64,000 bases of DNA. Origin: a virus. Of this stretch, positions 1 through 53,746 are shown piece by piece. The first letter of the stretch is position 1; each line of letters begins with the position of its first letter. Location of the stretch: the IMG/VR virus record IMGVR_UViG_3300046011_007348, positions 1-64,000 of that record. One strand, given 5' to 3'. A model generated the notes under the pieces. The model saw nothing but the letters and a program-made list of their open reading frames with translations, was not told the DNA's origin and did not search any database. Position numbers and translations under genes: made by a program.

Positions 1-3000
1 AGCACTATAGTGGCTGGGAACATTAGACGGTGCTTGCCTGGTGATGCGTTAGTGCATACAGAGTCAGGCTTAGTACCTATTGCTAAGATAAGAATAGGAG
101 ATCGTGTTCTCACCAGCAAAGGATTTTACCCTGTAACTAACTTCTTTGATCAAGGTGAGCAATCTCTTTGCAGAATCAAAACTCAAGACGGTAGTTTTGA
201 GTGTACAGCAGAACACAAGATTGCTGTGTTAACAGATGTCTATGGCAACTACAAAATGGTTAAAGCCAAAGACTTGAAGCAAGGTGATAGATTAGTACGT
301 GTTCTAGAAGCCACAGAATTAATACCAGTCAAGTTTGTGGACATTGAATTTGATGTACGAACTGCTCCCACTTACGACATAGAAGTTGCTACTGTGCATG
401 AATTTGTGTGCGAAGGCATCTTAGTTTCAAATAGCGCGGGCATGCGCCAGTTCACTTCTAGTGATAACGTAGCTGCTAACGCTAAAGCAAATCTATGGGA
501 GCAAACACCAACTGGAGAGTGGAGAATAGATCCAGAGAAAGATGCTTTGCGCATGGCAAATCACACCAGAGTTTTTCACCAAAAGCCTACTTATCAGGAA
601 GTATTTGATTCAGTAACGAGTCAATATTGGAGTGGTGAAGGAGCAATACAGTGGGCGGGTGAAGCTGTCGCCAGAGCAAATGCAGATTTATTGATTACCC
701 AAAAGCTAAAAGCAAAGTTTTTGACTGCTTACGAAAATGGTGAAGCTAAAGAATGGATAAGAAAAAATTATCCAGGCATGCCACATGCGGAGATAGAACA
801 TAGAGTAAGTACATATGGATTAAATCCATGTGGTGAAATTATTGGTAGCAATTTCCACTGTGTTAGTGGTGACACGCTGCTAATTACCAAAGATGGATTA
901 CACGCAATCAAAGATGTTGTAGGATGCGATGTTGAGATTTGGAATGGTAGGAATTGGAGTCAAGTACAGCCATTCAAAACTGGCAGTTCTCGCGTTCTTT
1001 ATCGTGTACGATTTGCGGATGGTACGTATTTAGATGCTACCGAATATCATAGATTCTTTGTTAAGGATAGGTTTGGCAAAGAATACAAAGAAGTACAGAC
1101 AAAAGACTTAATGGATGCAAGTAAGTATCGTATTCACACCAAGCCATTTACTATTCAGTATGATGATGGATTGGATATTGATACTAATTATGCTTATAGC
1201 TTGGGAGTAGCCGTAGGAGATGGCACCACAGACAAAGACAACAACGCAAAAATAAGATTGTATGGCAAAAAAATTGCTTTGTCCGTAGCAGGCGATAAGT
1301 CTCCCATCAGGGAATATGAATACGTTACAAACTTCACTGATGTTACAAATTTAAGCTTTTCTGGGGAATTTCTGAAGAGTCTCAAAACCAAACCAGAAGC
1401 ATTAAACATCATAGCAAGTTGGAATCGTGAAGCAATCTTGCATTTTATTGCTGGTTTAGCAGATACAGATGGAACAAATAGTAGCGGCAATGGTATTAGA
1501 ATCTACATCTCTGATTATGACAGAGCGTACAGAATACAATTGTTGCTAATTAAATGTGGTATTCGTTCTTCTGTCAATCTTTGCGCTTATAAAGGAGCAG
1601 TTACAAATTATGGTGTTAGAAGTAAAGATTTGTACTCTGTACAAGTAACTGATTGTGGTAAAATCCCTTGTCAGCGATTAGACGTAAGCCAAGGTAGAGT
1701 ACCTAAATGTAAAGGCAAATGGCAAGTTATCAGGAGTGTGGAGCAATTACCGGGATTGCATGACACTTACTGTTTTAATGAACCACAATATCATGAAGGT
1801 GTATTTGGAAACACGTTGACTGGAAATTGCAATTTGTCAGAAATACACTTAAATCAGCTCAATCCTACTGACTACAAAGAACAAGAAGATGCTTTTAGAG
1901 CAGCTTCACTCTCAGTAGCTGCATTGCTTCACCATAGATTCACCGAGCCTATTTATCAAGAATCTAGAGAGTTAGATCCTATTGTTGGTGTTTCCTTCAC
2001 CGGATTATTTGACTTTTTTGTTCATGCTTTTGGAGCAGAATGGCTTCACTGGTGGCAACAAGAGAGAGAAGACAATGAGCAAGGCAGGATATTTAAACAA
2101 AAAGAACAGGAGTATTTATCTAGATGGAAAGACATAGTACATCAAACTGTTTGGGAATATTGTGATAAACACAATCTTAAACGTCCTAATCGTTGTACTA
2201 CCGTCCAACCCAGTGGGTGTCTAGATCGCACTGCATTAAGAATTTTTGATCAAGGCTTACTTTATGCGGATGAATTGATAGCACCTGGCAGTGGTGAAGC
2301 TACTAATTTGAAACTAAGTGTTCGTGAAGGAGTGTCTGTCACCACTGGAATTGCTAATCAACCATTGCAATTGATTAAAGTTACATTAAACAATGGACGT
2401 GTTTTACGTATGACTCCAAACCATCGTCTTTCTATTGATGGAAACTGGATTTATGCGTCTGACATGACTCCTGGAATGAAGATTGATTTTAGTCTTGGGG
2501 AATATCAAAACAGCCAAGAGACTTCACTACTTGATATAGATCAATTTAGCTATACAAGAGAAGCAAAACAATTAGAGTCTGGGCATAATCGTGGTGGCAT
2601 CACAGCAACTATCATTAAAACGCCCAAGATAATGTCTCCTGACTTAGCTTATTTTATCGGAGCATTATTTGGAAATGGATGTTTAAGTGCAACTGGACAT
2701 CGTATTAGGTTTTCTAGTAATAGTTATAAATTGCTAGAAAGACTACAACAAATAGCACAAAATCTGTTTGTTTTAAATGGGAGAATCAACAAATACTCTG
2801 GCAGAGAAGCTTATGAATTAAGCATTTCTAGTGTTCAGCTTTATGATTGGTTGCAATTGAATGGAATAGCTAAAACAGAGAAAAGTCTAAATCTTGACAG
2901 AATACCATTAGCTATTCGTTGTTCCTCTAAGCAAAGTATTCTATCGTTCTTCTGTGGATTGATTGACACTGATGGATGCATTAGAGTTAATGGCTCAATG

Positions 3001-4011
3001 TCCATTGACAGCGCTAGTGAAGAGTTCATTAGAAACCTTCAACAAATAGGTGAAGCTGTAGGATTGTGTTTCTCCGTATTCCATAACACTGAAGGGGAGA
3101 ACAACCAAACACAGAAAAATATGTGGGGTTTATGTTTAAGCCGCATGTTATCTAAACCTGATGCTTTAGATTATCTAAACGAAAATAGTCAAAAAGCTGA
3201 GATTCGTCCTATTCCTTCACTCAAAAGAAGTTATAAATTTGATCCATATCTCATTGAATCTGTGGTGTGGGAAGAAACTTCTGATTACAGCTACGACTTT
3301 GCGGTGCAAGGAGAGGACGACAATGATTCATGGTATTGGCAAGGAGCGATTAAATCACATAACACAAAGTCTTTGTTAACTGGCGCTTCCCCTGGTTGGC
3401 ATCCTCCCAAAGCACAACAATTTATCCGTCGGATTACTTTCCGTAAGAACGATCCAGTAGCATTGGCATGCATAGACTTTGGATATAACGTAGTTCCATC
3501 ACAATCAGATAAAGATGAAAATGGTAACTTATTAGACAATCCTTTTGATGAACGTTGCACAGAATGGTTAGTAGAAATACCAGTAGCAGTATCTTGGGCA
3601 AATCTACCAGGAGTTGATGTTGATATTTCTAAATTCTCGGTGTTGGCACAGTTTGATTTTTATATGCAAGTGCAGAAGTATTACACAACTCATAATACTT
3701 CAGCCACACTTGAACTACGCCAGAACGAAATTGGTGCTTTAAGTAGAGCTATATATGACTCAATCAAGAACAATGACGGGTATATTTCTGCTGCTATCCT
3801 TAGTCGCTTTGATGATTTCCAGTCTTATCCTAGATTGCCTTTTGAGCCTATTAGCAAGGACAAATACTTGCAGTTGGTAGAAGAAGTAAATCAAAGAAGA
3901 ACTAATGATTCTTTCTTAGATGCTTTGCATAAGTATGATAATGGGTTTGATGAACAATCAGGCCCTGCCCCATGTGATTCAGACAAGTGTCTTTTACCAG
4001 AGTTAAAGTGA
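1..4011 (+). CDS. nrdJ: Class II (adenosylcobalamin-dependent) ribonucleotide reductase, 3' part, with three inteins
   Basis: This enzyme reduces ribonucleotides to deoxyribonucleotides for phage DNA synthesis. The frame is open from base 1, so the 5' end lies outside the window; a GTG at position 10 is an internal valine. With the inteins removed, the extein reads VAGNIRR/SAGMRQF, then NPCGEI with the active-site Cys and Glu, then SNFH/CNLSEIHLNQL, then TTVQPSG/TKSLLTGASPGWHPP, all hallmarks of class II enzymes. The C-terminus carries a Cys pair (CDSDKC) about five residues before the stop, as expected for the cysteines that re-reduce the active site. All three inteins sit in conserved catalytic segments, as is usual for inteins. 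The gene overlaps the next one. Similar intein-rich class II reductases are known from filamentous cyanobacteria. The family call is near certain. Confidence 0.95.
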   Translation, partial: STIVAGNIRRCLPGDALVHTESGLVPIAKIRIGDRVLTSKGFYPVTNFFDQGEQSLCRIKTQDGSFECTAEHKIAVLTDVYGNYKMVKAKDLKQGDRLVRVLEATELIPVKFVDIEFDVRTAPTYDIEVATVHEFVCEGILVSNSAGMRQFTSSDNVAANAKANLWEQTPTGEWRIDPEKDALRMANHTRVFHQKPTYQEVFDSVTSQYWSGEGAIQWAGEAVARANADLLITQKLKAKFLTAYENGEAKEWIRKNYPGMPHAEIEHRVSTYGLNPCGEIIGSNFHCVSGDTLLITKDGLHAIKDVVGCDVEIWNGRNWSQVQPFKTGSSRVLYRVRFADGTYLDATEYHRFFVKDRFGKEYKEVQTKDLMDASKYRIHTKPFTIQYDDGLDIDTNYAYSLGVAVGDGTTDKDNNAKIRLYGKKIALSVAGDKSPIREYEYVTNFTDVTNLSFSGEFLKSLKTKPEALNIIASWNREAILHFIAGLADTDGTNSSGNGIRIYISDYDRAYRIQLLLIKCGIRSSVNLCAYKGAVTNYGVRSKDLYSVQVTDCGKIPCQRLDVSQGRVPKCKGKWQVIRSVEQLPGLHDTYCFNEPQYHEGVFGNTLTGNCNLSEIHLNQLNPTDYKEQEDAFRAASLSVAALLHHRFTEPIYQESRELDPIVGVSFTGLFDFFVHAFGAEWLHWWQQEREDNEQGRIFKQKEQEYLSRWKDIVHQTVWEYCDKHNLKRPNRCTTVQPSGCLDRTALRIFDQGLLYADELIAPGSGEATNLKLSVREGVSVTTGIANQPLQLIKVTLNNGRVLRMTPNHRLSIDGNWIYASDMTPGMKIDFSLGEYQNSQETSLLDIDQFSYTREAKQLESGHNRGGITATIIKTPKIMSPDLAYFIGALFGNGCLSATGHRIRFSSNSYKLLERLQQIAQNLFVLNGRINKYSGREAYELSISSVQLYDWLQLNGIAKTEKSLNLDRIPLAIRCSSKQSILSFFCGLIDTDGCIRVNGSMSIDSASEEFIRNLQQIGEAVGLCFSVFHNTEGENNQTQKNMWGLCLSRMLSKPDALDYLNENSQKAEIRPIPSLKRSYKFDPYLIESVVWEETSDYSYDFAVQGEDDNDSWYWQGAIKSHNTKSLLTGASPGWHPPKAQQFIRRITFRKNDPVALACIDFGYNVVPSQSDKDENGNLLDNPFDERCTEWLVEIPVAVSWANLPGVDVDISKFSVLAQFDFYMQVQKYYTTHNTSATLELRQNEIGALSRAIYDSIKNNDGYISAAILSRFDDFQSYPRLPFEPISKDKYLQLVEEVNQRRTNDSFLDALHKYDNGFDEQSGPAPCDSDKCLLPELK
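31..432 (+). other. Mini-intein 1 in the reductase (134 residues)
   Basis: The segment starts with Cys (CLPGDALV) directly after VAGNIRR and ends in Asn (GILVSN) directly before SAGMRQF. Removing it restores an uninterrupted reductase motif. It has an intein block A (CLPGDALVHT) and a block B with a T-A-E-H core (ECTAEHKI), and the +1 residue is Ser. It is too short for a homing endonuclease and none is visible. The residue before the terminal Asn is Ser instead of the usual His, which should matter for Asn cyclisation. Boundaries come from the extein motif and are precise. Confidence 0.9.
859..1827 (+). other. Intein 2 in the reductase, with LAGLIDADG endonuclease (323 residues)
   Basis: It begins with Cys (CVSGDTLLIT) after GSNFH and ends with Asn (NTLTGN) before CNLSEIHL, so the +1 residue is Cys. 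Two LAGLIDADG-type dodecapeptides are visible: YSLGVAVGDGT and FIAGLADTDGT. Each keeps its acidic residue, so the homing endonuclease could be active. The residue before the last Asn is Gly instead of His. Excision rejoins the conserved segment after the NPCGEI active-site motif. Confidence 0.92.
2218..3363 (+). other. Intein 3 in the reductase, with LAGLIDADG endonuclease (382 residues)
   Basis: It begins with Cys (CLDRTALRIFDQG) after TTVQPSG and ends with the canonical His-Asn (IKSHN) before TKSLLTGASPGW, so the +1 residue is Thr. A TPNHRLSI motif is intein block B. Two dodecapeptides are seen: YFIGALFGNGC and FFCGLIDTDGC. In the first, the acidic residue expected before the final Gly is Asn (codon AAT), so one of the two endonuclease active sites may be lost. 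Splicing motifs look intact. Confidence 0.92.
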
Positions 4012-31236: not shown

Positions 31237-31455
31237 ATGTCAAACGTAGATCACCCACAGCATTACACAGCAAGTTCAGTTGAATGCATTGATGCAATTG
31301 CAGCAGCTTTATCTCCGGAAGAGCTAAGAGGATTCATCAAAGGCAATGTCATCAAATACTTATGGAGAAGCGAACACAAGAATGGTAATGAAGATTTACA
31401 GAAAGCTTTATGGTACTTAAATTGGTATGTCAATAAAATCAAAAATCCATCATAG
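31237..31455 (+). CDS. DUF3310-family protein
   Basis: 72 residues. The start SNVDHPQHYTASSVECIDAI and end GNVIKYLWRSEHKNGNEDLQKALWYLNWYV match the DUF3310 family, widespread small phage proteins of unproven function sometimes annotated as nucleotide kinase-like. The ATG at 31237 has a GGAGG site ten bases upstream, which sits in a terminator-like hairpin. It converges with the sigma gene, overlapping its end by 17 bases. Confidence 0.8.
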   Translation: MSNVDHPQHYTASSVECIDAIAAALSPEELRGFIKGNVIKYLWRSEHKNGNEDLQKALWYLNWYVNKIKNPS

Positions 31456-32395
31456 AGTTTTTGTGTAATTTTCCATTTACCACCTTATATTGCTTTAGCC
31501 AGTTATAGGCAGTAGATTGGCAAACACCTAAATAGAGTTTGCACCATGCGAATGATTTGCCATTAGAAAGTGCGTTTAAGACTGTTATCTTGACATTGTC
31601 ATCGTAAGAAGGCCTGCCAATTTGTAATGGATTTTCAACAAACTGACTTTGGCAACTTTTGCATAAATATTGCTGCCTATTTCCTCTTTTCCCGTTCTTG
31701 ACAACATTTTTGCTTAAACAGCTAGGACAAACAACAATATCGTTGACTACATTTTTAAGTAGTTCTATACCTTCAGATTCTAGTTGTTTAATTTGGTATA
31801 CTGACAAATTTAATAATGACTTAATATCTTGTATTTTATAATCTTCAATATAAATTAATCTAAGTATTTGTGCGTGCTTGCTTGGAATTTTAGCTAGTAT
31901 TATCTCTAATTCATCGATAGTAGAGTTATCAAAGTAACTGATTTCAGGAAGTTCTATGTGAATTTTATCATGAGCTATCGCAGCTTCTTTGGCGGTTAAT
32001 TCTGAAATAGTCAAGTCCCTAGCTGATTGTTCATAAGTAATGCCTTTCTTTTTAGCATTACGCATTATTTTCTGATAAATGTCTTGGATATTCCTAGGGA
32101 TTTTAACTAATCTGTCCTTGTCCCGCAGGAACATTAGCATATATCCATTTATAAAAGGAACAGCAAAGCTGGACAACTTTTTAGACTTTTCAGGATTATA
32201 TCTTTCAATAGCTTGAATTAATCCTAGACACCCAATTTGTACTAAATCCTCTAATGGAACAGAGCAAGACTTCTGGACTTTTTGAGCAACAGAGTAGACA
32301 AGTCCTAAATTCTTTTCTACAATCTTATTTCTTATTTTTATGTCTTTACTCTCGTAGTATTTGATTAGCAGCTGTTGGTTAACATCAAAATTCAT
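31439..32395 (-). CDS. Sigma-70 family factor fused to an InsA-like zinc ribbon and helix-turn-helix
   Basis: 318 residues. Residues 1-110 carry sigma region 2 (NLGLVYSVAQKVQ, LEDLVQIGCLGLIQAIERYN, FAVPFINGYMLMFL, VKIPRNIQDIYQKI) and residues 110-215 regions 3 and 4 (ILRLIYIEDYKIQDIKSLL). From 220 on, C223-x2-C226 with C245-x2-C248 in V-x-K-N-G-K and Y-L-C-K-S-C matches the zinc ribbon of IS1-family InsA, and SNGKSFAWCKLYLGVCQST then AYNWLKQY is its helix-turn-helix. No sigma factor with this tail is known to me. GTG at 32398 precedes ATG at 32395; ATG is chosen. It probably directs RNA polymerase to phage promoters. Confidence 0.85.
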   Translation of the reverse strand: MNFDVNQQLLIKYYESKDIKIRNKIVEKNLGLVYSVAQKVQKSCSVPLEDLVQIGCLGLIQAIERYNPEKSKKLSSFAVPFINGYMLMFLRDKDRLVKIPRNIQDIYQKIMRNAKKKGITYEQSARDLTISELTAKEAAIAHDKIHIELPEISYFDNSTIDELEIILAKIPSKHAQILRLIYIEDYKIQDIKSLLNLSVYQIKQLESEGIELLKNVVNDIVVCPSCLSKNVVKNGKRGNRQQYLCKSCQSQFVENPLQIGRPSYDDNVKITVLNALSNGKSFAWCKLYLGVCQSTAYNWLKQYKVVNGKLHKNSMMDF

Positions 32396-32469
32396 CACAT
32401 TAACACAAATGTTACATATTTATGTTACTTTAAAAATGGCAACTTTATAGGTAAACTATTCAGGAAACT

Positions 32470-36343: not shown

Positions 36344-37108
36344 ATGCTGCCATTAATTCAAAAAAAAAGTTTACCAGAAATTATCAAAGTCGGAACTGAT
36401 GAATCTGGATATTTGTATTTAGCTAAAACAAAATCTATCACAGTTGGGGAGAGGCAAGAACTATCTGAACACGAAAGAAAGCGTGGGCAAGGTAGCGTAA
36501 TGGCATCAAATCTAATTAACAAAATTGCCAAAGAAAAAAGCATCAGCACAGTTGAAGCACGTAATCTACTTGGTGGTATTGATAACTTAGATAATAGTCA
36601 AATTGTGGAAGAATATGCCAAAGAATTTTACGATTTGTCTACATTTATTGGCTCTGCTGACTTAGATATTAAAGTTGCTGTAGCGCATATCATTATTAAG
36701 AATAGAGTTGCTTACCCAATCAAAGTTGCTGTAGATGGCAACATAAATGACAAGAAGTTAACAGTTGAACCATTAACAGTTAATTTAACACATAGGCAAG
36801 GCATTAGAATAGGCAGTAGCTACATTATTGCTGAAGGAAATTATGAAATAGATAACACGTTGATTAAAACGCAGCCATTACCAGCTTCTATTAAAGCAGG
36901 CAGTGTTGGATTTTTGTCCTCTAATTATTTCTATGTGCTTGGAAGTTCTGAGTGGACACTAGAAATGACTAAGCAGCTAGATGAAATTCTTATTAACGAT
37001 ATTTATGACTTCTTCCAAAATGAATCTAACAGATGGGAATCTGTAGAGACAGTTGTACAAGATGAGCCGGGGGAGGACAAGACTCAACTAGCGTTACCGA
37101 TGGAATAG
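36344..37108 (+). CDS. Tail assembly chaperone, short form (gpG-like)
   Basis: 254 residues read straight to a TAG at 37106. Position after the tail-tube genes, with a -1 frame continuing without a start codon, is the classic tail assembly chaperone setting (lambda G/GT), where the short form binds the tape measure during tail building. Helices cluster at both ends (QIVEEYAKEFYDLSTF, KQLDEILINDIYDFFQNE). The tail chaperone role is inferred from order and frameshift; the tape measure itself lies far away on the reverse strand here. Confidence 0.65.
   Translation: MLPLIQKKSLPEIIKVGTDESGYLYLAKTKSITVGERQELSEHERKRGQGSVMASNLINKIAKEKSISTVEARNLLGGIDNLDNSQIVEEYAKEFYDLSTFIGSADLDIKVAVAHIIIKNRVAYPIKVAVDGNINDKKLTVEPLTVNLTHRQGIRIGSSYIIAEGNYEIDNTLIKTQPLPASIKAGSVGFLSSNYFYVLGSSEWTLEMTKQLDEILINDIYDFFQNESNRWESVETVVQDEPGEDKTQLALPME
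37069..37073 (+). promoter_or_regulatory. Candidate -1 frameshift site
   Basis: In zero frame the codons are CCG GGG GAG. A GGG tRNA in the P site can re-pair with GGG one base back within the run of five Gs. No obvious downstream stem was found. Confidence 0.55.
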
Positions 37109-37479
37109 ATTGGAAAAAACTGTATTGGCGTATTCAATCTTATCAAATCAAAGATAGAAGATTTAGTGACTGGGAAACTTATTTGCAGCAGCCAGATTAT
37201 GTAGTATTTGAATGTATTACTGAGATGGAATCTTTACGCATGGCTCAGTCAAACATTGACTCTAGAGTTCATGCAATTGGCTGGGCTGGACTATTCAATG
37301 GATTCAAAGGAAAGGAAGATCCATCTATTGATTACACTGAATTGTTGCCTTTTCCAAATCAAGCCCACAATCCAAAATGCAAATTGAGTGATGTCACAAA
37401 AGCGATTATTAACGAAGCTATACGTAAAAAAGATTTACCATTGATTTCGTTGACTAGCTTAGCTCTACTGTTAAATTAA
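37072..37479 (+). CDS. Tail assembly chaperone, frameshifted C-terminal extension (gpGT-like)
   Basis: From the GGGGG run at 37069-37073 the -1 frame is open for 135 codons to the stop at 37479, but has no ATG or GTG and opens just after a stop at 37063. The first TTG is at 37183, inside what is clearly the same domain: the codons before it read DWKKLYWRIQSYQIKD then RRFSDWETYL, protein-like and joined in frame to QQPDYVVFECITEMES. So the extension should be made by frameshifting at P-site GGG, giving a fusion of about 378 residues. Confidence 0.7.
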   Translation, partial: GGQDSTSVTDGIDWKKLYWRIQSYQIKDRRFSDWETYLQQPDYVVFECITEMESLRMAQSNIDSRVHAIGWAGLFNGFKGKEDPSIDYTELLPFPNQAHNPKCKLSDVTKAIINEAIRKKDLPLISLTSLALLLN

Positions 37480-49669: not shown

Positions 49670-50044
49670 ATGGATACAGACATCTTGTATCCTGTTAAAC
49701 ACAAAAGACAGTATAGGAGGAAAACTCAGTCATCGGTGGTGCTATCTGATTGCACCAGAGAAGCAATTGCACTTGAGCTGGAAGTATCTACTAGAACTGT
49801 TCAAGAGTTAATCAGAATTGCATCAACGTATATTGATTTGTTTAATGAGTATACAGATGACAATTACAGATTAAATGGTTTGCCGATAGATTCAAAACAA
49901 CAAGTTGAAGTGTTAAGGCAAATTAGACAAGTTAGACAAAAGTACAGACACGTCAAAGACAAGTCCTTTATTAAGAAGGAGTATCAAAAAATCAACCAAA
50001 GAGTTAAGGAGGAACAAAATGGCAGTCAAGAAAGCAACAGTTAA
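49670..50044 (+). CDS. DNA-binding protein, first gene of the FtsK operon
   Basis: 124 residues. A helix-turn-helix is visible in DCTREAIALELEVSTRTVQE (about 27-46) with a following helix LIRIASTYIDLF. The basic C-terminal half (QIRQVRQKYRHVKDKSFIKK) may wrap DNA or bind partners. A strong AAGGAGG precedes the ATG, and direct repeats and an operator lie just before it, so self-control is likely. It resembles plasmid control or partition proteins in layout. No family is assigned. Confidence 0.6.
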   Translation: MDTDILYPVKHKRQYRRKTQSSVVLSDCTREAIALELEVSTRTVQELIRIASTYIDLFNEYTDDNYRLNGLPIDSKQQVEVLRQIRQVRQKYRHVKDKSFIKKEYQKINQRVKEEQNGSQESNS

Positions 50045-50621
50045 AGATGTCGCAGCATCAATTGGCTGGACAGTCAAAGAGTTGGTAACAAGACTAAATC
50101 AAGAGCCTGGCATTAATGTCGCTCCTAGTGAAGCTTTTCCGACTTTGTCAGAGGACAGCGAGTTGTGGAAGCAAATCCAAGCTGCTGCTCAAAAAAGTCA
50201 AGTTAGTCAAGAGCCAGTTAAGGAGTCTGTCGCTATTGGAGAAGGCGAGATTAGTCCATACCAAGCGCCAATAGAAACAGTTGAGACATTAGCTGAAGCT
50301 CAGAAAGTATTAGCAGAAGAGACAACTGGCATTCAAGTAGAACAAGCTCGTATACTTGGCTCTGTTGCTGGCATTAATGAAACCATTACATATTTTACAG
50401 CACGCCAACAAGTCACTGAAGCATTGCTTAGACATCATATTGAGCAACAAACTAATCTCACAGATAGTTTAATCGGAAAAGCCAAAGAATCTTCATTTGA
50501 ACTGCACAAGCAGACAAGGAACAGCTTGTCAGGAGCCTATGAATTAAAAAAAACTCTAGAAGAGCAAAAAGCCAGGTTGAAAAACATAGTGACGCAAATG
50601 ACACAATCATTTGGGATGTAA
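50019..50621 (+). CDS. Helix-turn-helix and coiled-coil protein
   Basis: 200 residues. Residues 5-50 resemble a small winged/IF2-N-like DNA-binding head (ATVKDVAASIGWTVKELVTR); 70-200 are helical, with long coiled-coil stretches (TLAEAQKVLAEETTGIQVEQ, then ELKKTLEEQKARLKNIVTQM). The start follows AGGAGGA and overlaps the previous gene. A perfect A-AAA-AAA slippery stretch at residues 176-178 may shift some ribosomes into the -1 frame that contains the membrane-protein gene at 50687. Confidence 0.6.
   Translation: MAVKKATVKDVAASIGWTVKELVTRLNQEPGINVAPSEAFPTLSEDSELWKQIQAAAQKSQVSQEPVKESVAIGEGEISPYQAPIETVETLAEAQKVLAEETTGIQVEQARILGSVAGINETITYFTARQQVTEALLRHHIEQQTNLTDSLIGKAKESSFELHKQTRNSLSGAYELKKTLEEQKARLKNIVTQMTQSFGM
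50546..50552 (+). promoter_or_regulatory. Candidate -1 frameshift heptamer A-AAA-AAA
   Basis: In frame TTA AAA AAA ACT. After slipping, the -1 frame stays open through the stop at 50621 and reaches the membrane protein (stop 50917). Frame -1 has no ATG, GTG or TTG between 50549 and 50687. Confidence 0.5.
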
Positions 50622-50686
50622 TCAGACTGGTTAATGAATCGACTTTAGCGCAAATAGAGTTAGCAATATCGATTGGGCAAATTGAG

Positions 50687-50917
50687 ATGCTTCAGCAAAT
50701 TCTAAAAAGAAGAAAGGAGTTAATTAAAATCATGATTGACACATTGTTAGGAGTATCAAGTGTAGCAGGAGTAGCGACTATAGCAAGTTATTTTGCTGTT
50801 GCCACTGCTGTAGTCAATCCAGTTGTATTAACGGCATTAGGTGCAGCTGCTTTTTTAAGTGGTGTCTATATGCAATTTTCATCATCTAATTCAATTCAAA
50901 TTACCCGGAGAAAATAA
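50687..50917 (+). CDS. Small membrane protein (possible frameshift product)
   Basis: 76 residues from ATG 50687, or from ATG 50732 with two membrane helices only. Two hydrophobic helices (LLGVSSVAGVATIASYFAVA and TALGAAAFLSGVYMQF) follow a basic head (QQILKRRKELIKIM). Codons before the ATG read TIIWDVIRLVNESTLAQIEL in frame without a start, so translation may begin upstream by frameshift or at a non-standard codon. Function unknown. Confidence 0.6.
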   Translation: MLQQILKRRKELIKIMIDTLLGVSSVAGVATIASYFAVATAVVNPVVLTALGAAAFLSGVYMQFSSSNSIQITRRK

Positions 50918-51867: not shown

Positions 51868-51927
51868 GTGGATACCATTACTTGCCTCCTTATTCATTTT
51901 AAAGGGAGGTATTATGTTCTTTTTTAA
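51868..51927 (+). CDS. Possible 19-residue peptide overlapping the FtsK start
   Basis: GTG at 51868 lies six bases after GGGAGGT and opens a 19-codon frame (MDTITCLLIHFKGRYYVLF) that ends inside the FtsK gene. Translation would bring ribosomes to the FtsK start at 51914, which has its own GGGAGG. It may be a coupling peptide or chance. Confidence 0.35.
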   Translation: MDTITCLLIHFKGRYYVLF

Positions 51928-53746
51928 ATCAAAAGCAAAGCCTAAAGTTGTACACAAGAAATTTGAATTAAGTCCAGTTGTGTTGTACAACTTAATTGGA
52001 GTAACAATTTTAGTTTTTACACCTGCAATGATTAGCTGGAAAAATGCTAAAGAGTTGCGAGTAGCAAGTAGTGCCGTAGCAGTAATGTACTCTATGGTAT
52101 TGTTAAAATATGCCCAAAACAATATTGATGAAGCTGATAGACTTGCCATAGAAAAAGAGCATTACTTTACGGCTTATGCTAATGCTTCTGGGGATGTTTA
52201 TTTAAATTCAGAACAACAAATCAAAAATGCTTTGCTGCCTCCTGCTTCTAGTCCAGAAGTAGACTTAGAAGTTCTGCATCCATTAGAAGATACACTCTTA
52301 AAATTAGGCATCAAAGCAACAATAGATGGAGAGCCAATAGATTCTCCTACGTTTACTAGATTCAAGATAGTGCCTGACAAAGGAGTGCATTATCAAAAAT
52401 TTAATAATTTGTCAGATACTCTAAAAGTTCATATGGGGTATGATACACCTCCACTGATTTCATGTCAAAGCAAGTATGTCTCGATTGATGTAGCAAAGAC
52501 AGACTCAGAAAGACGTTTTTGTGAATATCAAGAATACTCAAACAATTTGAATTATTCTCTTGAGAAGTTCACTGTTCCTATTGGAGTTGACATCAACAAC
52601 AATCTTGTTGAAGTGTCGTTATCAGATGCTAACTCCCCTCATTTATTGATTGCTGGAACTACTGGTAGTGGCAAGAGTGGTTGGTTAGTAGCTTGCATAA
52701 CTAGTTTGCTGGATAGATTTCCTGCTGATAAATGCAGACTATTTTTGATTGATCCAAAGCTAGTTGAGTTTGATATTTTTGAAAAATACAAACAAGTTGA
52801 GTTGGTAACAAAACAAGAAGACGCTCTTACTTTGTTGCACAATTTACTTAACACAATGGAAAGTAGATATGAGCTATTCAAAAAACATAAAGCACGGGAT
52901 TTATCTCAATACAATAGAGAAAATCCTAAGAATATTATGCCACGAGTTGTGGTGTGTTTTGATGAATACGCAACATTCATGGTAGGAGACAGTAAAGATG
53001 ATTTTAACGATTGTTTATCTCAACTAGCACAGAGAGCGAGAAGTGCTGGAATACACCTTGTATTAGCTACTCAGCGTCCTGATGCGACAATTGTCACGCC
53101 TAGGATACGCTCTAACATACCTGCTCGCATTGCATTAAAGACTATCCAACACCAGGATAGTGCTATAATTTTAGGAGTAGAAGATGGCACTTTAAACTCC
53201 AAGAATTTGTGTGGTAAAGGTGACTTAATTGCTAATTACAATGGCAAGCTAGAAAGACTGCAAGGATTGTATGTCAAAGATGTAGATTACACGTTATCAA
53301 ATACTGAAATCAAGGAGTTAACAAATGTAGATTCACCTTACCAAAATGACGAAATTGCCTATAGCTATAGTGAAGCACAAGATAGCGAGAAAGGTGAAGT
53401 GTATACTCACTTCTCCAAAACAGCTCAAAAGGATAGTGTACAAGCATTTGAGTCTAAAAACAAATTTGTAACTAGCTTAGTGAAGCTAAAAATCGCTGCC
53501 TTAATGTCTGGGGATATAGACGAAACTGAGCCGTTATTTGATGATAGTTATGGGCTGTCATCAGAGCAGCAGCTTTTAGTGTTGAAGTTTTTTCTAGACA
53601 AAAACATAGGCAAAGAACGCACAATTAAAGCTCTATGGGGAACAAGTTCTGGTGGTAAAAATCATCATAAATATCAAAAATCAAGTGCTATTTATGATGA
53701 CATGATATCTAAAATAAAAGAACTTGAATACTTAACACAAGTGTAA
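51914..53746 (+). CDS. Membrane-anchored FtsK/SpoIIIE-type DNA translocase
   Basis: 610 residues. The ATG at 51914 follows GGGAGG; an in-frame TTG at 51854 is not needed. Two membrane helices (about 20-41 and 50-67) are followed by a linker, then the RecA-like motor with Walker A GTTGSGKS (248-255), Walker B VVVCFDEYATF (Asp350-Glu351), then LATQRPDATIVTPRIRSN and IPARIALKT, characteristic of FtsK/SpoIIIE. The last 60 residues form a winged-helix-like domain (ERTIKALWGTSSGGK), like the gamma domain or plasmid TraB end. A double-strand DNA pump at the membrane is predicted. Unusual in a phage. Confidence 0.85.
   Translation: MFFFKSKAKPKVVHKKFELSPVVLYNLIGVTILVFTPAMISWKNAKELRVASSAVAVMYSMVLLKYAQNNIDEADRLAIEKEHYFTAYANASGDVYLNSEQQIKNALLPPASSPEVDLEVLHPLEDTLLKLGIKATIDGEPIDSPTFTRFKIVPDKGVHYQKFNNLSDTLKVHMGYDTPPLISCQSKYVSIDVAKTDSERRFCEYQEYSNNLNYSLEKFTVPIGVDINNNLVEVSLSDANSPHLLIAGTTGSGKSGWLVACITSLLDRFPADKCRLFLIDPKLVEFDIFEKYKQVELVTKQEDALTLLHNLLNTMESRYELFKKHKARDLSQYNRENPKNIMPRVVVCFDEYATFMVGDSKDDFNDCLSQLAQRARSAGIHLVLATQRPDATIVTPRIRSNIPARIALKTIQHQDSAIILGVEDGTLNSKNLCGKGDLIANYNGKLERLQGLYVKDVDYTLSNTEIKELTNVDSPYQNDEIAYSYSEAQDSEKGEVYTHFSKTAQKDSVQAFESKNKFVTSLVKLKIAALMSGDIDETEPLFDDSYGLSSEQQLLVLKFFLDKNIGKERTIKALWGTSSGGKNHHKYQKSSAIYDDMISKIKELEYLTQV

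Follow-up and report, generated by a model that had tools for sequence, protein, structure and literature searches.

Probable programmed -1 ribosomal frameshifting at a slippery site subject to turnover in a coiled-coil and membrane protein gene pair of phages and Nostocales plasmids

A pair of overlapping reading frames, the first encoding a soluble coiled-coil protein and the second a hydrophobic protein, was analysed in a viral DNA and its relatives, and comparison of the sequences makes it probable that the two are joined by programmed -1 ribosomal frameshifting in the viral DNA itself, in a second clade of phages and in plasmids of Nostocales, that the slippery site has turned over among them, and that a third clade of phages starts the second protein separately. 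The DNA analysed (the window) comprises positions 1 to 64,000 of the 72,023-base IMG/VR virus record IMGVR_UViG_3300046011_007348, and the features of the pair described below lie on its + strand.

According to the proposed scheme, most ribosomes translating the gene at 50019-50621 would terminate at 50621, yielding a soluble coiled-coil protein of 200 amino acids. A fraction, probably helped by the sequence AGGAG 10 nt upstream, would slip back one base on A_AAA_AAA at 50546-50552 and continue as far as 50917; their product of 299 amino acids would share its first 178 residues with the soluble protein and carry a membrane anchor at its C terminus. In related phages and in plasmids of cyanobacteria the shift would take place on A_AAA_AAG or, a few codons further upstream, on G_GGR_RAG, one phage lineage would use an ATG of its own in place of slippage, and an internal ATG at 50732 may add a short form consisting of the membrane part only. 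Slippage itself and its rate are what we infer from these patterns.

The coordinates given in the original prediction were reproduced. The heptamer is in phase with the ORF 50019-50621 (GAA TTA AAA AAA ACT) and lies within a run of eight A residues at 50546-50553; it is kept in clade 1, the group of close relatives of the window, and is A_AAA_AAG in clade 2. The -1 frame (50552-50917) extends over 121 codons before its stop at 50915-50917, and its first ATG, GTG or TTG is ATG 50687, so that the startless open frame was as predicted; 178 and 121 residues add up to the 299 that had been proposed for the fusion. The stretch from the 0-frame stop to that first canonical start codon (50622-50686) is conserved and aligns across clades, with a pN/pS of 0.47 in clade 1 (15 pooled pairwise changes). 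The 121-residue extension ends in a hydrophobic membrane segment, and a homologous protein is present in all family members read.

The proposal that the upstream protein is a DNA-binding protein of the helix-turn-helix type was not supported, as no family was matched in Pfam, NCBIfam, PHROGs or PADLOC and the only hint was IF2_N below the cut-off (E 0.017). No family was assigned to either part, 0-frame or -1, by the protein family libraries searched, and the PDB fold search with the 0-frame protein yielded 39 matches, none with an E value below 1. An AlphaFold2 model of the 0-frame protein from an eight-row alignment (mean pLDDT 72.8, pTM 0.28) predicts a small helical domain at the N terminus and, behind it, one helix some 115 residues long (residues 85-199). 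The model of the -1 product (mean pLDDT 45) was used only for noting helices; strongly hydrophobic stretches were found in the -1 part.

The A-run of the window is unremarkable by itself, and the comparative evidence therefore carries the case. Nine in-phase A_AAA_AAR heptamers occur in the 54 genes (19,280 codons) of the window, and at only one of them, 50546-50552, does the -1 frame outrun the 0-frame stop (123 open codons); at the other eight it is open for 4-19 codons. Given the Lys-Lys pair, local codon usage and the open -1 frame, a heptamer of one of four tested types arises in 52% of simulations (P 0.52). The three strongest heptamers were found in four of seven lineages, for which a rough P of 7e-4 was obtained by counting the A_AAA_AAA of clade 1 as a miss and taking the lineages as independent; this value is not the main evidence.

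The expectation that homologues retain the A-run and the open -1 frame was borne out in clades 1 and 2, with an in-frame A_AAA_AAR in 12/12 loci, the window included. Four further clade 1 contigs, with -1 products 96-100% identical, retain the A8 run and are too close to the window to say much about conservation. Clade 2 consists of the Cylindrospermopsis phage genomes OQ625504 and MH636380 and five IMG/VR contigs (L019-L023); the phage records show about 21-22% identity to the window in the 0-frame protein and 34-36% in the -1 protein. A_AAA_AAG is in phase in all seven clade 2 loci; when the proteins are aligned it falls one codon off the site of the window, and the open part of the -1 frame begins just upstream of it. 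Two more clade 2 loci, L041 and L043, were read as ORFs and excluded from the heptamer count.

Selection on the peptide encoded before any start codon was seen in clade 2. L022 does not have the start deposited for the Cylindrospermopsis phage gene (TTG, L008:3498), and its first -1 ATG, GTG or TTG is ATG 2269, 63 codons past the heptamer. For the 26 codons from the TTG position to this ATG the pooled clade 2 pN/pS was 0.25, and L022 gave 0.31 when compared with L008 (P 0.022) and 0.26 when compared with L019 (0/2000 simulations as low), these P values being relative to random substitution on one sequence, with no transition bias, and the pairs not being independent. In the stretch leading from the 0-frame stop to the TTG position, the pooled pN/pS was 0.56 and indels were whole codons, and inside the overlap the -1 frame of clade 2 was unconstrained (2.26). 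The -1 peptide upstream of the start codons aligns between phage clades. The motif, the open -1 frame, their conservation and the selection on the -1 peptide are thus evident from the sequences.

A search with the 0-frame protein of clade 2 retrieved nine plasmids of Nostoc, Aulosira, Tolypothrix, Microchaete and Calothrix (24-27% identity over 94%), and two further searches added plasmids of Nostoc HK-01 and Fischerella NIES-4106. Nine of the 11 plasmids were read; the remaining two, H90 and H91, had match values identical to those of the Tolypothrix PCC 7712 hit. A hydrophobic protein follows in the -1 phase in 9/9, and G_GGR_RAG is found at Leu-Gly-(Glu/Lys) codons of the overlap in 9/9, which are not nine independent events because the plasmids form roughly four lineages. 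The motif occurs once per locus and nowhere else (nine in total in ORFs of at least 100 aa of these loci, 25,303 codons, partly inter-homologous); with the amino acids fixed, the probability of finding it in a locus by chance is 0.065-0.095. Five of the nine plasmids carry a perfect heptamer of any kind, namely A_AAA_AAG in L064 and L066, A_AAA_AAA in L067 and G_GGA_AAG in L071 and L072; in L065, L068, L069 and L070 there is only G_GGG_GAG, which departs from the perfect X_XXY_YYZ pattern.

In the plasmids too, the peptide past the 0-frame stop is conserved. The pN/pS of the first 28 codons was 0.45 among seven plasmids and 0.42 within the four lacking a perfect heptamer, and comparison of L064 with L065, L068, L069 and L070 gave P values of 0.012, 0.010, 0.034 and 0.087 for these codons, by the same simulation on non-independent pairs. 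Inside the overlap the 0 frame is constrained (pN/pS 0.17), whereas the -1 frame is not (1.56). The plasmid of Nostoc HK-01 has 78 codons of open -1 frame with no start codon, and its -1 peptide YKTITQILTIQNQTTATLAEIRLL matches that of L064 (pN/pS 0.43, P 0.0045). L072 is an exception, with an ATG 6 nt past the 0-frame stop. Annotators of several plasmids placed the start at the Met equivalent to ATG 50732, and the data suggest that the deposited starts, a TTG or a late ATG, are wrong in the two phage genomes and in several plasmids.

Clade 3 (L031-L035) is the counter-example. All five contigs lack an in-phase heptamer in the open overlap and have an ATG in the -1 frame within it (L031:4027), and yet the -1 phase and the downstream frame are kept, with an overlap of 79 bases. 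This clade is nearer to the window than clade 2, at 64-65% identity in a neighbouring gene and 40% in the -1 product. A canonical start codon (ATG, GTG or TTG) for the second protein, within or close to the overlap, is present in clade 3 and absent in the window and clade 1. Clade 3 most simply would start the second protein separately, so that frameshifting does not extend to the whole family. The situation named beforehand as contrary to slippage, loss of the A-run with the downstream frame kept and an own start, was found here and not in clades 1 and 2; the frameshift reading is accordingly favoured in clades 1 and 2 and in the plasmids, where motifs accompany a selected -1 peptide with no conserved start, and disfavoured in clade 3.

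Clade 3 also bears on the best of the alternatives, which we nevertheless regard as unlikely, that no fusion is made and that coupled reinitiation gives the downstream protein a start of its own, on a non-canonical codon (ATT, ATC or CTG) within the overlap or close to the stop. The separate start of clade 3 at its overlap ATG indicates that a free protein can function, and suitable codons exist, such as ATC 50621 overlapping the stop of the window and ATT 3447 in L008, but none of them is conserved, and the -1 frame of L019 contains no ATT, ATC, ATA or CTG between 5649 and 5721. Such a start would moreover leave the A_AAA_AAR and G_GGR_RAG motifs of the overlaps unexplained.

A_AAA_AAG and G_GGA_AAG are listed among the three most efficient heptamers of Escherichia coli in the portion of PMC4066793 covered here, and the corresponding portion of PMC5009743 describes A_AAA_AAA as much less shifty than A_AAA_AAG in that organism; 10% frameshifting is given for one A_AAA_AAA cassette in the portion of PMC3711429 covered. 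The AGGAG at 50531-50535 (-6.6 kcal/mol to the anti-Shine-Dalgarno) is a possible stimulator, and its distance of 10 nt from the heptamer in clade 1 is within the 9-14 nt published for -1 sites (same portion of PMC5009743). Using the Shine-Dalgarno motif list of PMC4066793, as far as the covered portion gives it, a stimulator-like sequence was detected in 5/10 phage loci tested, comprising 4/4 of clade 1 and 1/6 of clade 2 (L019), at a background of about 12%. No downstream hairpin clearly below shuffled sequences was obtained when the 70 nt after the site were folded in ten loci (z from -0.8 to -1.1 in clade 1 and from -0.2 to +1.5 in clade 2).

Runs of A can slip in transcription as in translation (PMC3711429, portion covered), and RNA polymerase slippage on the A8 of clade 1, adding an A to some transcripts, would also join the two frames. 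We judge this to be very improbable, since clade 2 has only A7, the G_GGA_AAG of L071 and L072 is not a homopolymer, and the motifs keep codon phase.

The third alternative is that only a short membrane protein starting at ATG 50732 (or 50687) is real and that the open -1 frame upstream of it is due to chance. In the window, AAAGGAG followed after 12 nt by this ATG (50713-50734) forms a good Shine-Dalgarno and start combination (-7.4 kcal/mol) that is the same in clade 3; the Met is conserved in the three phage clades, and several plasmid annotations use its equivalent. The Shine-Dalgarno is weaker in clade 2 and in the plasmids L064 and L065, and absent in L071. These features are consistent with a short membrane-only form that may be made in addition, but as the sole product it would leave the conserved upstream peptide (pN/pS 0.25 in pooled clade 2, 0.42-0.45 in the plasmids), which aligns across phage clades, to coincidence, and we regard this alternative as very improbable. 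Homopolymer runs are prone to sequencing error, and a base missing from the assembly of what is really a single ORF can practically be dismissed, as the -1 phase is the same in clade 1 contigs from four metagenomes and in both Cylindrospermopsis phage genomes deposited.

The gene neighbourhood was compared between phages and plasmids. In the window an FtsK/SpoIIIE-family ATPase is encoded nearby at 51914-53746 (+; Pfam PF01580, E 1.7e-33), and it is the order of genes in the phages that suggests a membrane tether working with this FtsK-like neighbour. A small gene lies directly upstream of the pair in both phages and plasmids (window 49670-50917; L064-L072). The 638-aa protein of the plasmids showed no BLASTP similarity to the phage FtsK beyond a possible Walker A stretch, and their 136-aa neighbours had no match either; since the plasmid neighbours compared are not recognisably related, the gene pair is all that the phage and plasmid modules have in common with certainty. 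A scan of genome contigs by FtsK for chromosomal copies returned a single locus, which lies in an unplaced MAG and holds an FtsK relative at 29%.

The GGGGGAG of the plasmids was also noticed at another gene of the window. The gene at 36344-37108 lies directly after the major tail protein genes, and its -1 frame runs to 37479 and is startless before 37183; GGGGGAG heads this overlap in the window, in L075, in the Cylindrospermopsis phages L073 and L074 and in L077 of clade 3, that is, in three phage clades, and L076 gave no ORF under the script filter. No family was matched by 36344-37479, which by its position probably is the tail assembly chaperone with a non-standard frameshift site. The presence of GGGGGAG at the head of this startless overlap suggests that the hosts concerned can use G_GGG_GAG for -1 slippage. 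Elsewhere in the window, a 1333-aa ORF at 10-4011 resembles by eye a ribonucleotide reductase broken by intein-like stretches, and 31439-32398 (-) resembles by eye a sigma factor with a C-terminal zinc-finger/HTH-like part.

A wider picture can be offered only tentatively, and taken as a whole it is more doubtful than probable: the pair might belong to a DNA-handling module of phages and plasmids of filamentous cyanobacteria, in which frameshifting would set the ratio of free to membrane-anchored coiled-coil protein and a P-loop DNA motor for moving or segregating DNA would thereby be brought to the membrane, perhaps where septa separate neighbouring cells in the filament, and G_GGG_GAG would be a programmed -1 site of cyanobacteria, in the plasmid gene as well as in the phage tail gene.

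Three known systems resemble the pair. In the tail assembly chaperone G/GT of lambda type, a short upstream protein likewise receives a startless -1 extension by slippage, and the lambda site, G_GGA_AAG, is the motif of L071 and L072; here, however, the extension is a membrane segment and the gene adjoins an FtsK-like gene. A tail assembly chaperone was considered for 50019-50917 and rejected, since it does not lie just after the major tail protein gene, a place occupied by 36344-37479. The dnaX gene of E. coli shares the A-run heptamer (A_AAA_AAG with an upstream Shine-Dalgarno), comparable to the Shine-Dalgarno-like sequence 10 nt upstream in clade 1, but its shift shortens the product, whereas the shift proposed here lengthens it and is accompanied by no strong downstream hairpin. 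The -1 fusions of IS3/IS911-type transposases also join a 0-frame protein to a -1 domain at A-rich sites, but no transposase family was matched here. No description of the gene family was found in the literature searched, which included portions of PMC5009743, PMC4066793, PMC3711429 and PMC10811720 and covered few subscription journals; the class of decoding mechanism is already known, and the gene family and the type of product appear to be new. The visible turnover of the shift site, together with one lineage that has its own start codon, would provide a natural experiment on the purpose of a frameshift fusion. If the proposed reading is true, the pair would represent a conserved -1 frameshift family outside the tail, transposase and dnaX genes that is common to phages and plasmids.
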